A stretch of 64,000 bases of DNA, taken from assembly GCF_026151205.1 (NCBI RefSeq), contig NC_087079.1:5661230-5725229 (forward strand), given 5' to 3'. Below, piece after piece: positions 51,192 to 59,851 of the stretch (position 1 is the first letter of the stretch; each line of letters begins with the position of its first letter). Origin of the DNA: Bolinopsis microptera (lineage: Eukaryota; Ctenophora; Tentaculata; Lobata; Bolinopsidae). The position numbers and the translations under genes are program-made. A model generated the notes under the pieces. The model had not been told where the DNA came from. It searched no databases and worked only from the letters and a program-made list of their open reading frames with translations.

Positions 51192-53015
51192 CTAAATGAT
51201 TGAAAAATGGGTTTTTAAAGCCCGTTTAAAAGTATCAATGTTGTTAGCTTTTCTTACCGTATACGGTAGCAAGTTCCAGAGTTTTGGGGCTGCGTTGCTA
51301 AACCTCCTATCACCTAGCCTGATTTTACTGAGTCTATTAACCTTAAACCTTAAGTCATCACCAGACAGTTGCCGTGTTTTAGAATATGCTGCCTGGGAGT
51401 CAATCTGAAGAAGATCAGACAGATATGGTGGTGCTTGGCTGTACATAACCTTATACGCCAGAAGACAAATCTTGAAACTTATTCGTTCTTCAATGGGGAG
51501 AATGTGTGCTTTTTTGTAGTATTCGAGAAGATCTACATCACGGTCATCGATGTTATAGATGAATCGTATTCCAGCATTCAGTACAGATTTGAGCTTTTTC
51601 AGTGACTTCATCGGTAGGCAAACATACAGTGCATTACAGTAGTCAAGTTTTGATATAACCAGTTGCTTCACTAGCATAACTTTTAAACTTTCATCAAGAT
51701 AACATCGTATTCTCTTCAGATTAGTTAATGCCCACATTGACTTCTGTTTAACACTGTTTAGCTGTCTTTCCATGGTAAGAGCTGGGTCTAGTTTGACTCC
51801 TAAACTCTTCCAATTGTCACCGACACATTCTGTTGGGATCACTTCCGTACTCCCAAAATTAACAGAAATTTGATTCTGTCCAAATTCTCTAAGAACCAAA
51901 GGCTTCCCAATGACTAGTAGCTCTGTTTTTGACTCATTAAGTTTCATATAATTTTCAAGCATCCAGGCCCTTATTTCGTCAAGGCAGGCATTGATCTTAA
52001 TTTTCATTTCACTTAGTTCTCCAGGTATTAGGGGTTCAAAAGAAATGTAGAGCTGCGAGTCATCTGCATATAGCTGAATACGAATCCCATATTTAGCAGC
52101 TATCTTCTGAAGTTGTTTAATGTACAGGATGAACAAAATCGGTCCAAGCAAAGATCCCTGAGGCACTCCAAAAAGAAGACACATTACATCAGATAGCTCC
52201 TGACCAACTTTGACATCGAAAGATCTTGCATGAAGGTAATCCTCAAACCAGCTGTTAGCTTTACCTGTGATTCCAAAGTCAGCTAAGAGTTTTCTGATAA
52301 GTATATTATGATCTATTGTGTCGAAAGCTGCTGAAAGGTCTAGCAGGACCAGTGTCACAATTCTACCCTGCTCGATTTCCCCAAGAATGTCATCAGTCAT
52401 TTTCACTAATAAAGTCTCACAGCTATGTTTTGGTCTATAACCAGACTGAACTGGACAATGAAGATCTTCTGCATCCAAGTATTTATTGAGTTGACTGAGT
52501 ATGTACTTTTCAAGGATCTTGGACATAACCGGGAGATTTGAAACTGGTCTATAGTTTTTTAGACAGTCAGGATCTGCTCCATCCTTTTTGAGGGTGGGTC
52601 TGACCACTGCTCTCTTAAGATCCGATGGAAACTTAGCAGTTTCAATGGAAAGGTTGACGATGTAGCAGAGAAATGGTGCTAGTTCTTTAATGCAGTGTTT
52701 CAGGAGAAACATGGGTATTGGATCTAAGTCACAGAACTTATTTGACATGCTTTTCACCAGGGTTTCCATCTCGGACACTTCTACTGCTTTAAAAGTCTCT
52801 AACTTTGACTCCCTTTTATCACCTCTTGGGTTTTCCTGGGGTTCGGCCGGTGAATCACGAAGGTTTTCAATAGAGGACCGGATGTTTTCCACTTTTCCAG
52901 AAAAGAAAGCTTTTAGATCATCTGCAACTTCCTTAGGATTTCCAGATGGCATACTTGTCTGAGAATTACCCAACAAGCGATTGACTTTCTTGTAAAGGGA
53001 TTTAATCTCATTAAA
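51192..53015 (-). CDS. LINE ORF2, reverse transcriptase part
   Basis: This is the RT domain of the LINE polyprotein, which copies the element's RNA into DNA at the nicked target. The open frame begins with FNEIKSLYKKVNRLLG just after the insertion junction. Using the 594 residues from the first start-like codon (52,976), the landmarks are NYRPVSNLPV (141-150), the finger motif SGYRPKHSCETLL (178-190), catalytic LDLSAAFDTIDH (212-223), GVPQGSLLGPILF (270-282) and the catalytic YADD box (303-306). They are followed by WMLENYMKLNESKTE and a CR1/L2-type tail with RFSNAAPKLWN. All catalytic aspartates are present. The N-terminal endonuclease half lies at 55,395-56,438, displaced by the nested insertion. 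Confidence 0.95.
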   Translation of the reverse strand, partial: FNEIKSLYKKVNRLLGNSQTSMPSGNPKEVADDLKAFFSGKVENIRSSIENLRDSPAEPQENPRGDKRESKLETFKAVEVSEMETLVKSMSNKFCDLDPIPMFLLKHCIKELAPFLCYIVNLSIETAKFPSDLKRAVVRPTLKKDGADPDCLKNYRPVSNLPVMSKILEKYILSQLNKYLDAEDLHCPVQSGYRPKHSCETLLVKMTDDILGEIEQGRIVTLVLLDLSAAFDTIDHNILIRKLLADFGITGKANSWFEDYLHARSFDVKVGQELSDVMCLLFGVPQGSLLGPILFILYIKQLQKIAAKYGIRIQLYADDSQLYISFEPLIPGELSEMKIKINACLDEIRAWMLENYMKLNESKTELLVIGKPLVLREFGQNQISVNFGSTEVIPTECVGDNWKSLGVKLDPALTMERQLNSVKQKSMWALTNLKRIRCYLDESLKVMLVKQLVISKLDYCNALYVCLPMKSLKKLKSVLNAGIRFIYNIDDRDVDLLEYYKKAHILPIEERISFKICLLAYKVMYSQAPPYLSDLLQIDSQAAYSKTRQLSGDDLRFKVNRLSKIRLGDRRFSNAAPKLWNLLPYTVRKANNIDTFKRALKTHFSII

Positions 53016-53212
53016 CTATATAAAAAAATAAGTATAAAGAATAAGGAAAAGGAACGGGAATGAAGCCAATACCAGAAGTGAAACCCCACCAAAGAATAAT
53101 TGATCCTTAGGTAGACCTGGTGAAATAAAGTAACTGAACTGTAAGTTTAAGAAAAGACGGAAGGAATAAAGGAGAGAGGAAATAATGTATGTGAACATCA
53201 TCAGCAGATGAC

Positions 53213-53265
53213 TTGGCACACCGGTTTCGGGGGTTTAATACCTGTACCGGTTTAATGTGCCAAGA
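53213..53265. repeat. Hairpin in the 3' region of the Penelope-like element
   Basis: The arms CTTGGCACA and TGTGCCAAG lie at the two ends, with ACCGGTTT repeated within. The transcript of the element could fold here. Its role is unknown. Confidence 0.7.
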
Positions 53266-53290
53266 CCCCCTAGCAATCACTCGTCAGTGA

Positions 53291-53701
53291 TCACCTGTTC
53301 ACGTTAAATGTGATGTCAAGGATGTCGCTGACATCAAGTATACTGTATTTGTACAGAATACTAGGTCGGTCTTTCAGAAGCTTTTTGAATTTACTCTTCA
53401 GGAGTCTGTCATTATAACATCTTGAAAGAAGTGTCCTATAAAGGGTGTTGGTAGAACACAGAAAAGAATCAAGGTCAGAGATAATGGAAGAGTAACGAAG
53501 GACCTGACCGTAAAAAACATTATAACCAACAGAAGAGGAAATATTACTGTTAGGAAAGGTGTACATGACCACAGGAAAGTTGAAGTCATCAAGTTTGTTG
53601 TAAAGCTTGGTGGCGACGTGTCCGGAGTTATTCATCGAGATGTTGATGTCGAGATAGTTTACGGACTTATTGTCGTCACCACTCCTCTCCATAAGCAGGT
53701 C
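53291..53701 (-). CDS. C-terminal part of the Penelope-like reverse transcriptase
   Basis: This is the region after the catalytic RYVDD box. It contains GDDNKSVNYLDINIS, a TKLYNKLDDFNFPVVMYTF segment and SVGYNVFYGQVLRYSSI, then a basic helical tail ending at the TGA or TAG near 53,291. It is separated from the catalytic part by the MULE at 53,702-55,048. The frame on the two sides is the same when one copy of the 9-bp target duplication is counted. Confidence 0.7.
   Translation of the reverse strand, partial: DLLMERSGDDNKSVNYLDINISMNNSGHVATKLYNKLDDFNFPVVMYTFPNSNISSSVGYNVFYGQVLRYSSIISDLDSFLCSTNTLYRTLLSRCYNDRLLKSKFKKLLKDRPSILYKYSILDVSDILDITFNVNR
53693..53701. repeat. MULE target-site duplication, left copy
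   Basis: AAGCAGGTC, identical to 55,049-55,057. Nine bases is the usual duplication length for Mutator-like elements. Confidence 0.9.
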
Positions 53702-53997
53702 GGTAATCACACTATATAATGACAACACTATATAATGACAAGCACTTTGTAATGACAGCTGATCTTTGTCATTATATAGTCTGCAAAACGGACTATATAA
53801 TGACAACACTATATAATGACAAGTTTATCTTATATCGACTTTTCCTTACTTTTCTTTAATTCTACTTTTAGAATATTACTAAAGCAAATAATCTTATTTA
53901 AGTAAAATGTATAACTGTCATAGAAATATAGTACAATCGAAATATCATAAAATCCCAATATCGTAAAACCGATAATATCAATAATCAAATGTCGAAT

Positions 53998-54225
53998 TCA
54001 TAGTGCAGCAGAAACAGCAGAGAGATAATCGATGACTTCGTACTCCTGGTTATCGTAGGCTTGCATGAAGGATTCCAGAAGGGAGTCGTACCTTATCCAC
54101 TTGGCTGCTCTCTGGGGTGGAGGTCTTCTCATCAGTCTTTCCGTGATCTTCTGATCTGTTAGTCCTTGCTCTAGTTTGAGGGCTTCAAGGTGTCTGGCTG
54201 AAGGTGTCTGGCTGAAAAGGTCCAA
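53998..54225 (-). pseudogene. MULE transposase, C-terminal fragment
   Basis: The 75-residue frame has RRPPPQRAAKWIRYDSLLES and YEVIDYLSAVSAAL at the end, the kind of C-terminal helical tail (short basic segment, K-W/x-Y, then DYL-x-A/I) seen in FLYWCH/MULE transposases. Just upstream, in another frame, lies LTVHGITPDNYRLPLAFGLL followed by PGKRQEHYTNLLEEL. That is the conserved MULE core stretch preceding the second catalytic residue. A short SQTPSARHL/SQTP duplication marks the junction between the frames. The piece is a remnant of a deleted gene. Confidence 0.65.
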
Positions 54226-54333
54226 AGCGATCCAGTTCTTCTAGTAGGTTTGTGTAGTGTTCTTGCCGCTTTCCAGGGAGAAGACCAAACGCCAGAGGAA
54301 GTCTGTAGTTGTCTGGGGTGATTCCATGTACTG

Positions 54334-54675
54334 TCAGGAGTTAGGTGAATAGATTGGGTGCCACCTTAAAAGTTCCGTCAATGACGAGATTGCTGTTCGT
54401 ACCATCTTCGAGAGGCTGCTGGTCCGACATCCAAGGTTAGCTCTGCACTCGAAGTCCAGTCCTGAAAGAACTTCAGCAACGATCCGTTTAGTTGATGTGT
54501 CCGATGTCGCTGCACGTTCCTTCATCATCTTCTTAGAGCGATGGACCACGATCTCTGCTCTTTGTTCATCGTGGTTGTGGTTCGGAGAGTTCTTTACTGT
54601 CTGTTCATGAAGGACCAGTCGAGCGTTGTCCTTTCCTCGTTTACCAGTAGTGTATTCAACAGAAGGAGTAGCCAT
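54334..54675 (-). pseudogene. MULE transposase, FLYWCH-like N-terminal fragment
   Basis: The frame starts at an ATG (MATPSVEYTTGKRGKDNARL). It then shows NSPNHNHDEQRAEI and a helical AEIVVHRSKKMMKERAATSD, the pattern of a FLYWCH zinc finger (G-x-K...H-x-H) followed by the K-x-M-K-x-R-A linker found in MULE transposases. The Cys-containing middle of the finger is absent, which fits internal deletion. FLYWCH fingers bind the element ends. Confidence 0.65.
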
Positions 54676-55030
54676 GATTGATATAGCTTTTCCTTCATTG
54701 AGCCCTATATATACGAGTACCACCACATGATAACAAGCTCCAACGACACCAACGAGCTCCAACAAGTACTCATGTTTCCACTTGAGTACTTGGATCACAT
54801 CCTTTCCACAGCTTGCATTAAAATATTTGAGATGACGGATCAGCTAGTGATGATCTGTGGCACGTTCGATGTTACGCGACCTTACCATTTGAAGGCATGG
54901 GTCACATCATTTTAGGTAAATTTGCAGCCGTCTCACATGTCATTATATAGTGTGCAAAACGCACTTTGTAATGACAGGACTATATAGTGACAAGTCATTA
55001 TAAAGTGCTTGTCATTATATAGTGTTGTCA

Positions 55031-55400
55031 TTATATGGTGCGGGAATCAAGCAGGTCAGGTGGATAAATGGACCTGATTAGGTTAGAGAAATGCAAATAG
55101 TTCATGGTGTTGAGGTCGTCGACATATCTGCAGTTTCTTGAGAGGAGCTTAGCGAGACCGAACTTCTTTTCTTTGATTAGGCGTGTCATGTAGTTGAATT
55201 CACACTTCCCTAGCGAAAGATCAGCGAACTGGCTACTAGAATTCCCTCCCATGGGAATGCCTTTCGTTTGTCTTAAAATCTGATCCCCAATAATAATATC
55301 ACCTGATGAAGCTGTGATAGAATTTCTATAGTATCCCTTTCTTTTTTCAAACTCCATACCCTGAAATTTATCCCGAAGTCCTACGTACGCTGGTTTAAGT
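55031..55400 (-). CDS. Catalytic part of the Penelope-like reverse transcriptase
   Basis: The frame reads FEKRKGYYRNSI, then SSGDIIIGDQILRQTKGIPM with GGNSSSQFADLSLGKCEF, then FGLAKLLSRNCRYVDDL and SNLIRSIYPPDLL. GIPMG...S and RYVDD correspond to RT motifs B and C; the YVDD box holds the paired catalytic Asp. The motif A region is missing because the element is 5'-truncated into the LINE. The right end of the frame is interrupted by the MULE left boundary at 55,048. The last few codons listed run into MULE sequence. Confidence 0.7.
55049..55057. repeat. MULE target-site duplication, right copy
   Basis: AAGCAGGTC, identical to 53,693-53,701. Confidence 0.9.
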
Positions 55401-56438
55401 CCTTTTCCAGACCTCCAAGCTCTCTGCTCTTCTTCTCATTCTTCTCACTTCTCTCAGCTCTTCATCAATCCAGGGCGTTTCATTAGCTTTCACTTTCCTG
55501 TCCACTTCTGGGCAATGGGTGTCCATAAGGCTCGAAAGAACCTCATTGTACTGTGTAACGGCCTCGTCTAGTGACCAGTCAAAATTTCCTTGGCACAGAG
55601 ATGAGTTCTTCAAACTTTCTCTAAAAATGTCTTTGTCAAGATTTTTAAAATTTCGGTAGTTAACCTTTTTCCAAGTCATCTTGGGTTTCTTACAGCAGTG
55701 ATACCCTAAATCAAAATGAACCAGAAAGTGGTCGGAGGATGTTCCTGATTTGGTCACAGAAACTGGGCCCATTCTAGACCTAAGGTTTTCTGTAGAGAGT
55801 ATAAGGTCAATTGTACCACCTTGTTCATGCGTTGGTACAATAGGCATGATTTGATAAAGGTCATAGTCTTGTAGAAGTCTTACCAATTTCATAGGGTACA
55901 AATCATTAGGACGCTCCATGTGAATGTTGAAATCTCCCATCAGAAGAGGGATACCAGTCTTGGTACTTAAGTCATCAAGGTAGCTCTCGAACTCCTCTAG
56001 AAACATACATTCCGTGTATCTAGCTTTCTTTGTATAAGGAGGCCTGTATATATTCACAAGACGAATCGAATCTGTCTCAGTCTCAGATTGGAGCAATGCT
56101 TCCATAACCTGGAACGTTTTGTACTTAGTTACCTTTTCGTTAACTTTTAAGGTTATTTCTGGTCTGTAAAGGAAAGCAATACCTCCTCCACCTCTGTGTT
56201 TTCTAGGATTTGATAGTATCTCCCAGCCATAACTCTTGATCTCTTGAATTTTTACACTATCTGCCTCCTTAAGAAACGTTTCCTGGACAAAGCAAACATC
56301 ACATTTATGATCATTGAGGTGCTCCATCACTCCCACTGTCTTATTTACAAGCGATCTGACATTAAAGGTCCCAACCCTTAGGCTCTTGTTCTCTTTGTCA
56401 TGAGCTCCTTTACCCTGATTTGGTAGGAGTTTTTTGCA
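55395..56438 (-). CDS. LINE ORF2, AP-endonuclease part
   Basis: This is the exonuclease-endonuclease-phosphatase fold domain that nicks target DNA. The frame is open from just after a TGA at 56,441-56,439. The conserved order is VGTFNVRSLVNK, CFVQETFL (catalytic Glu), GGIAFLYRP, VNIYRPP, LLMGDFNIH (Asp/Asn), GGTIDLIL and SDHFLVHFDL (catalytic Asp-His). The region before VGTFNVRSL has no ATG; the first in-frame start-like codon is a GTG at 56,336, after the conserved start. The frame is the -1 frame of ORF1, whose end it overlaps by about 60 bases. It is thus probably translated by frameshifting or reinitiation. The frame ends where the Penelope-like insertion begins. Confidence 0.93.
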   Translation of the reverse strand, partial: CKKLLPNQGKGAHDKENKSLRVGTFNVRSLVNKTVGVMEHLNDHKCDVCFVQETFLKEADSVKIQEIKSYGWEILSNPRKHRGGGGIAFLYRPEITLKVNEKVTKYKTFQVMEALLQSETETDSIRLVNIYRPPYTKKARYTECMFLEEFESYLDDLSTKTGIPLLMGDFNIHMERPNDLYPMKLVRLLQDYDLYQIMPIVPTHEQGGTIDLILSTENLRSRMGPVSVTKSGTSSDHFLVHFDLGYHCCKKPKMTWKKVNYRNFKNLDKDIFRESLKNSSLCQGNFDWSLDEAVTQYNEVLSSLMDTHCPEVDRKVKANETPWIDEELREVRRMRRRAESLEVWKRT

Positions 56439-57571
56439 TCACTTGATGAGTGAGTCCTGGACATGACCCACAGTTTTTCTCTCACATAAAACGGACAAAG
56501 AGTGTCTGACGCCTTGTGTCTTGGATCTGACTTTTCTGATCGATTCTTGCTATGTGAACAGTTCGTGCATCGTATGTCCCCTGTCTTTTTCTCTTTCTTC
56601 TTAATACAGTCCTTCGATTTGTGGCTTCCTGCACAGTAGAAACATGTTGGGTCTGAGTCTTTGGACTTGCAGTATATGGATCCACTTGTATGACCAAAAC
56701 CTTGACAGTGATAACACTGTATAACGTGATACCTGTCTCTGACAGGGTACATTTCCAATCCCAGACAGATCCTGTTTCCAGCCTTTTTGATAACTTCCCT
56801 TATAGCCGGTGAAACCTGCAAAACGGCAAACCTATCTTTGTCATCCATAAAGACAGCCTTGAACTCATCACCACTTTCCATCAGGGTCTTGATAGTGTCA
56901 TTCTTCTTCAGGACACCCTCCACTAGCTCTTCCTTCGTCTTTATGTCTGCATCAAGGCCCGAGATAGTTATCTTTGGATTAAGCTTCCTCAGTTCTTCCG
57001 ACTTAGATGTGACATTATAATTGGATTTAAGCGCTTCTTCTGCATGACCTAGATCCTCTTTGGATTTGAACACCAGTCTGGCAACGCCTTCAGTTTTAGG
57101 GGGATTAGCCCTAACTACAGGAATATTGCTCAGTTTTTGCTTAAGATCCTTTTTCACAGCTGTTGTCCATTCTTCACCCGAGATTTTATTATCTCCATCA
57201 GGTCCCAAGTCCTCAGACTTCTTTTCAACCACCAGAGTATGCCTGACCTTGTCAGTATGCAAAGACTTCACACCAGAATATCCTGACTGAGCTGTTGCCA
57301 AGCTCTCCTGAATAATTTGTGGCAGTGTAGAAGCTAGTTCCTCTCTTACAATAGCTAAAACCTGTTCATGTGTACTGGATTCTTGTGGGCAAGACAGAGC
57401 TTCGATTGCTTTTTCAGCTAAATTGTAAGCCATTTTTAGGGACTGCCAAATGCCCTCCTTTGTATTAGTACACTTTTTAACATCATCACACTCAGATATT
57501 CTTACCTTAAGGGAGGTGTTGATTTTCTCCAACTCTATCTCCAGTTTCTTCTTCAACTTCATATCCGCCAT
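56378..57571 (-). CDS. LINE ORF1, gag-like nucleic-acid-binding protein
   Basis: The 397 residues start at an ATG (MADMKLKKKLEIELEK). A short amphipathic helix (about 4-25) is followed by a helical region (38-95), an RRM-like stretch (about 148-205, ARLVFKSKEDLGHAEEAL) and three Cys-rich knuckles. These are C286-x2-C289-x4-H294-x6-C301, C310-x2-C313-x3-H317-x4-C322, and a third with C335-x2-C338, H352 and C359. This is the type of ORF1 found in CR1, Jockey and I-group LINEs; it coats the element's RNA. The final residues include Ala379-Lys380-Asn381, coded by the slippery sequence GCA AAA AAC. The frame is intact. Confidence 0.93.
   Translation of the reverse strand: MADMKLKKKLEIELEKINTSLKVRISECDDVKKCTNTKEGIWQSLKMAYNLAEKAIEALSCPQESSTHEQVLAIVREELASTLPQIIQESLATAQSGYSGVKSLHTDKVRHTLVVEKKSEDLGPDGDNKISGEEWTTAVKKDLKQKLSNIPVVRANPPKTEGVARLVFKSKEDLGHAEEALKSNYNVTSKSEELRKLNPKITISGLDADIKTKEELVEGVLKKNDTIKTLMESGDEFKAVFMDDKDRFAVLQVSPAIREVIKKAGNRICLGLEMYPVRDRYHVIQCYHCQGFGHTSGSIYCKSKDSDPTCFYCAGSHKSKDCIKKKEKKTGDIRCTNCSHSKNRSEKSDPRHKASDTLCPFYVREKLWVMSRTHSSSDAKNSYQIRVKELMTKRTRA
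56429..56435 (-). promoter_or_regulatory. Candidate -1 ribosomal frameshift heptamer A AAA AAC
   Basis: In the ORF1 frame the codons gcA AAA AAC form the canonical X XXY YYZ slippery heptamer. A -1 slip makes the next codon CTC at 56,429-56,427 and continues through GAHDKENKSLRVGTFNVRSL into the endonuclease. ORF2 lacks its own ATG there. No downstream pseudoknot was modelled. Termination-reinitiation is the main alternative, since ORF1 stops 49 bases later. Confidence 0.6.
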
Positions 57572-59832: not shown

Positions 59833-59851
59833 GGGGGGGGGGGGGGGGGGG
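59833..59851. repeat. G homopolymer
   Basis: A run of about 19 G in otherwise AT-rich DNA. Confidence 0.9.

Follow-up and report, generated by a model that had tools for sequence, protein, structure and literature searches.

The window, which is the whole stretch of 64,000 nucleotides analysed here, carries on its minus strand a LINE, presumably of the CR1/L2 clade, whose two ORFs overlap at a heptamer of the slippery type. The window copy (L001) belongs to the family that we call A. Its features, in positions of the window, are the following:

56378 to 57571, minus strand: ORF1, 397 aa, from the ATG at 57571 to a TAA; no Pfam match at E<=0.1
56439 to 56441, minus strand: TGA closing the ORF2 frame, immediately 5' of TGC AAA AAA CTC, so that the frame opens 3 nt 5' of the heptamer
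56429 to 56435, minus strand: slippery heptamer A AAA AAC in the ORF1 phase, from the sequence and the comparison of sampled copies
56378 to 56438, minus strand: overlap of 61 nt between ORF1, stop included, and the open ORF2 frame
56378 to 56380, minus strand: ORF1 stop TAA, 48 nt 3' of the heptamer
55398 to 56438, minus strand: 5' part of ORF2, a linker and an AP-like endonuclease (Pfam Exo_endo_phos 5.4e-13, Exo_endo_phos_2 1.3e-8)
53011 to 55293, no strand: insertion of 2283 bp in ORF2 of the window copy; copies L003 and L007 are continuous across it
51195 to 53010, minus strand: 3' part of ORF2, reverse transcriptase (RT; Pfam RVT_1 3.8e-29 in 51195-53015; alignment to L003 and L007)

At the junction the ORF1 frame reads GAT GCA AAA AAC TCC and the ORF2 frame TGA TGC AAA AAA CTC. 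An earlier reading made from the letters of the window (the sequence-only reading) had placed GCA AAA AAC in the phase of ORF1 and had described a -1 frame running open into the endonuclease with no ATG before it. We confirm both statements: the heptamer lies at 56435-56429 (minus), the -1 frame is open from 56438 into VGTFNVRSLVNK, where the endonuclease begins, and the first Met of the ORF2 frame has index 37, within the endonuclease, whose core GTFNVRSLVNK starts at 56372 (minus). The window alone is weak evidence, because A AAA AAC arises at the right phase in 7.4 % of shuffles of the A-family junction L003; the strength comes from comparison. Cys/His knuckle-like stretches can be seen by eye in ORF1 of the window copy.

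Pfam finds the order endonuclease then RT (Exo_endo_phos and RVT_1) in ORF2 of both the window copy and family E. The insertion parts the two domains and breaks ORF2 of the window copy, and the final bases of the 5' part, to about 55398, may lie at or past the edge of the normal ORF2 continuation near 55294. The flanking LINE sequence overlaps by 8 bp at the insertion, probably as a target-site duplication. The first 0.5 kb of the insertion (from 53200) is present in 39 other scored places, 35 of them with this part joined directly to the insertion's last part, and the middle part (about 53702-55048), which carries inverted repeats towards its ends, is matched only here among the scored matches; one element therefore seems to be nested in another. 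Two ORF fragments in this region (window 53294-53824 and 55034-55435, minus) have what we take, by eye, to be a resemblance to the RT of Penelope-like elements; a Pfam search gave the former only a sub-threshold DUF1106 match and the latter none.

Among solved structures, the endonuclease part of the window copy has no match at E<=0.01 and the RT matches R2 and group II/retron-type RTs. The RT (51195-53015, minus) also matches PDB 2q7z_A, complement receptor type 1, at E 3.4e-6 with a best stretch of 182-231, and no single stretch of this match passes alone. Elsewhere in the window, positions 59833-59851 form a run of 19 G amid sequence of 40 % GC.

The junction in twelve families

The genome of the window (264.65 Mb) was searched with a 501-base junction query, giving 35 matches, of which nine, the window included, are full-length at 96-100 %, one stands at 85 % and the others are partial or at 66-68 %. 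The LINE is therefore multi-copy, with near-identical copies. Three protein searches of the genome with the endonuclease (best 150 of 519, 930 and 1127 candidates) yielded more distant copies, which were sampled from each new similarity level and sorted by eye on similarity into families A to L. The census consists of 29+39+20 = 88 picked copies with a readable junction, a sample from the best 150 matches per search and not all copies, and conservation here means conservation over 12 families in one genome of one species. Copies L011, L012 and L032-L035 (of 35 loci) and L053 (of 40 loci) had no usable junction and were left out; L076-L082, L113, L115 and L116, cut longer from sampled elements or their family mates, added nothing to the count; L114, excised at the wrong place, was unused. 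The census pattern was AAAAAAN or YCCTTTT in one phase within 110 nt, and all phases were examined in separate scans. No relatives outside this genome were found in viral contigs (one protein and one alignment), genome contigs (one protein) or phages (tblastn), where little was to be expected because these databases hold viral and prokaryote sequence.

A AAA AAC was found at the expected phase in 74 of the 88 sampled junctions, distributed over the families as A 8/10, B 19/19, C 9/9, D 10/11, E 6/6, F 6/6, G 4/4, H 2/2, K 5/5 and L 5/5. Single copies carry a changed heptamer in three cases, A AAA AAG in L009 and A AAA AAU in the decayed copy L010, both of family A, and A AAA AAA in L052 of family D. 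The remaining two families have another sequence throughout, C CCU UUU in family I (6/6) and U CCU UUU in family J (5/5). The latter falls outside the strict N NNW WWH rule, and its first position would need G-U re-pairing. Both fit Y CCU UUU, the heptanucleotide suggested as the NS1' site of the JEV-group flaviviruses in a report that allows U at position 1 by such re-pairing (PMC2657137). The expectation of the sequence-only reading, a heptamer kept in phase amid varying surroundings, is thus borne out in 10 of 12 families, and the other two have in its position another shift site of known type.

An ORF2-frame stop between the heptamer and the endonuclease motif was found in 0 of 88 junctions, and the -1 frame is open in all 88 over a distance of 39-66 nt; two copies (L005, L059) have a stop inside the motif itself. 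The distance from the heptamer to the ORF1-frame stop varies by family: 0 nt in F and H, 3 nt in G, K and L, 6 nt in E, 12 or 21 nt in J, 30 nt in I and 48 nt in A-D, except for 51 nt in L010. In L058 and L060, both of family E, the sequence shortly 5' of the junction is unrelated, and hence ORF1 is missing there. The frame 3' of the heptamer stays open for 2.9-3.2 kb in seven of nine representatives, for 1.0 kb in the window copy and for 1.7 kb in family I. Families C, F and H are each represented by a single long copy, in which ORF1 is open for only part of its length (208, 69 and 19 codons respectively).

The sequence around the heptamer is variable. Identity in the first 560 aa of ORF2 is 26-55 % among nine families, and ORF1 tails differ between families in both length and sequence. 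Dinucleotide shuffles of 81-nt junction windows, with one copy per family, lead one to expect A AAA AAC at this phase in 0.34 of 12 families, compared to 10 observed; for any N NNW WWH heptamer the expectation is 1.9 and the number found is 11, all but J. At another phase the consensus heptamer occurs in one family only, in the longer A run of L. In all nine representatives it is the sole N NNW WWH site at this phase within the last 70 ORF1 codons, the open codons numbering only 69 in F and 19 in H. We give no combined p-value because the families share ancestry, and the real unit is 12 families on long branches.

We built a tree of ORF2 N-terminal proteins, midpoint-rooted for drawing only and with a long outgroup row (L103). 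A branch with support 100/99 separates the 12 families from six other LINE types, and families I and J form a pair (99/98). Family H, which has A AAA AAC, is drawn nearest to this pair at 88/92, under the mark for strong support. Since the 12 families stand together and I and J are paired, one switch from A AAA AAC to Y CCU UUU suffices. Such a replacement of one shift site by an unrelated one at the same place is hard to account for except by frameshifting.

A downstream pseudoknot, which the sequence-only reading had suggested looking for, did not emerge. Minimum free energy folds of the 80 nt downstream of the heptamer in 11 families (all but J) have z values from -0.72 to +1.69 against shuffles and no shared signal, and no length tried gave a z below -1.76 (A, 50 nt). 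A scan for simple H-type pseudoknots with crude energies was negative in 10 of these 11 families, and the candidate in F was equalled by 3 of 30 shuffles. A stem begins 5 nt past the heptamer in K and 9 nt past it in F. The ORF1 stop comes within two codons of the heptamer in E, F, G, H, K and L, and our guess is that its nearness may aid the shift in these six families.

Routes to ORF2

The best explanation of these junctions is very probably programmed -1 frameshifting to an ORF1-ORF2 fusion, at a site common to the LINE clade. Ribosomes would translate ORF1 until, at GCA AAA AAC, the P- and A-site tRNAs slip back by one base. A fraction would then go on in the -1 frame and produce an ORF1-ORF2 fusion with endonuclease and RT, and the remaining ribosomes would halt at the end of ORF1. 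The predicted outcome is much ORF1 protein and little fusion, comparable to Gag and Gag-Pol. We infer the occurrence of the shift, its rate, the tandem slip and the working of the fusion in retrotransposition from the compared sequences. The proposal of a programmed frameshift, made from the window by the sequence-only reading, gains support from the 88 junctions of 12 families.

One alternative is termination-reinitiation, where ORF1 is finished and translation restarts at a near ORF2 AUG or a non-AUG codon, the heptamer being incidental. In SART1 and L1, ORF2 has its own start. A mechanism of this kind has been proposed for SART1, and a report suggests it for both SART1 and L1, two-ORF LINEs like those described here, in which translation of ORF2 depends on that of ORF1 (PMC2881922). 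The junctions of four families are compatible with it: an ORF2-frame AUG lies just before the endonuclease in F, H and L, 0-9 nt from the motif, and in four of five J copies the ORF2-frame ATG is part of an AUGA overlap with the ORF1 stop. Because of these start codons reinitiation is a possibility in F, H, L and J, and they may reflect either dual use or a drift toward reinitiation.

For the clade as a whole we consider reinitiation improbable. In the sampled copies of A, B, C, D, E, G, I and K, which are 8 of the 12 families, the interval from heptamer to endonuclease motif contains no ORF2-frame AUG; unlike SART1 and L1, these families have a slippery site instead. An ORF2-frame AUG in C lies 5' of the heptamer. 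The statement that no ATG opens ORF2 thus holds for other copies in these eight families and fails in F, H, L and most of J. In family A the first Met lies past an Asn shared by all nine aligned families. Reinitiation also leaves unexplained both the constant phase of the heptamer and its exchange for another shift site.

Other LINE types of the same genome do have the arrangement that reinitiation would use. We compared ten copies of six such types (L103-L112), picked from an RVT_1 search (best 150 of 6502 candidates). AUGA stop-start overlaps are present in L104, L105, L109 and L112, and an AUG follows the ORF1 stop after 5 nt in L106-L108 and after 13 nt in L110; in L103 and L111 the ORFs are about 180 nt apart, with the end of ORF1 outside the scanned stretch. 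In the stretch that begins 30 nt ahead of the ORF2 opening and extends 150 nt past it, the consensus heptamer is absent from all ten except L105, where it is found at +144, inside ORF2. ORF1 of L104 gave a sub-threshold match to GDSL lipase. Many of the best 150 of the 6502 RVT_1 matches score equally and have frames open for about 1000 aa, and for this reason the genome seems rich in young LINEs.

Slippage of the polymerase on the A run during transcription, by which some mRNAs would gain one base and have their frames fused, is a considerably poorer candidate, and we regard it as very unlikely. The ten A-type families do offer six or seven consecutive A. Such slippage would depend neither on phase nor on a C after the run. 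All ten families nevertheless share one phase, and 74 of their 77 copies have the C; families I and J have merely a C4T5 or C2T4-5 run there.

The heptamer might also follow from a protein motif, Lys-Asn being conserved near the end of ORF1 in the A-type families, mostly as SKN or AKN. The preceding residue is Ala, Ser, Ile, Thr, Gln or Arg, encoded by GCA, TCA, ATA, ACA, CAA or CGA, so that its third base is A in 77/77 copies; Lys is AAA in 77/77, and AAC comes next in 74, with AAU in L010 only. ORF1 codon use (3084 codons) is 0.521 for AAA, 0.460 for AAC and 0.283 for a third-base A, and a conserved X-K-N motif would yield the heptamer at 0.068 per family. Given these nearly fixed codons, and the absence of the motif from I and J, which have Pro-Phe with another shift site instead, a protein motif that the nucleotides merely follow is the least probable of the explanations, with hardly any weight left to it.

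Returning to programmed -1 frameshifting, we lean slightly towards a wider hypothesis, in which a whole old clade of animal LINEs, probably in a ctenophore, obligately makes its endonuclease-RT as a Gag-Pol-like fusion by a -1 frameshift. The slippery site would be the most constrained element of the junction, replaced once without loss of the strategy; there would be no clade-wide pseudoknot, with perhaps some help from the ORF1 stop 0-2 codons downstream in 6 of 12 families, and other lineages would use the AUGA overlap.

Known systems and significance

How ORF2 is expressed in two-ORF LINEs is not settled, and reinitiation is the usual answer. Retroviral gag-pro and gag-pol are known for -1 frameshifting with A AAA AAC. 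The LINE clade has in common with these genes the heptamer, the layout of the overlap and the expected control of the ratio of products; it differs in that the order of endonuclease and RT is not that of an LTR element, and no shared stimulator was found. On mammalian ribosomes A_AAA_AAC is listed in one report among the most shift-prone sites (PMC5009743).

The same report describes gag of the Drosophila element HeT-A as needing frameshifting (PMC5009743), which makes HeT-A an animal non-LTR element comparable to those studied here, although the frameshift there is in the gag gene and HeT-A is without an RT of its own. For LINEs of Paramecium, +1 frameshifting, reinitiation or readthrough are given as possible (PMC5405496). 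The JEV-group NS1' site is matched at the expected phase by C CCU UUU in family I and U CCU UUU in family J; the flavivirus differs in having a predicted stable pseudoknot past a 5-nt spacer (PMC2657137), none having been found in I.

The closest precedent comes from Dictyostelium. Its TRE5-A and TRE3-A are two-ORF LINEs whose ORF2 has an AP endonuclease and an RT, and a review states that ORF2 depends on a -1 frameshift in both (PMC5911963). These are amoeba elements, whereas here the site is defined, 12 families are sampled and one switch is seen. The opinion of the sequence-only reading that an ORF1-ORF2 fusion would be notable is therefore fair but has to be tempered by this precedent. In the literature searched, with most subscription journals and Repbase reports outside it, we found no report of a -1 site shared by a clade of animal LINEs. 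The kind of mechanism is already known, and what may be new is its fixation across the 12 sampled families, the exchange of the site and the coexistence with LINEs whose ORFs are coupled by stop and start codons.

If frameshifting is confirmed, the way in which LTR elements set the ratio of structural to enzymatic protein would be a stable strategy in animal LINEs too, and the ORF2 protein would carry an ORF1 domain. The genome offers a comparison between a clade with a fixed slippery site and LINE types with stop-start overlaps, and the exchange of A AAA AAC for Y CCU UUU serves as a natural experiment on the equivalence of shift sites in evolution. The J copies L088-L091 combine U CCU UUU with the AUGA overlap and are a possible intermediate between frameshifting and reinitiation.
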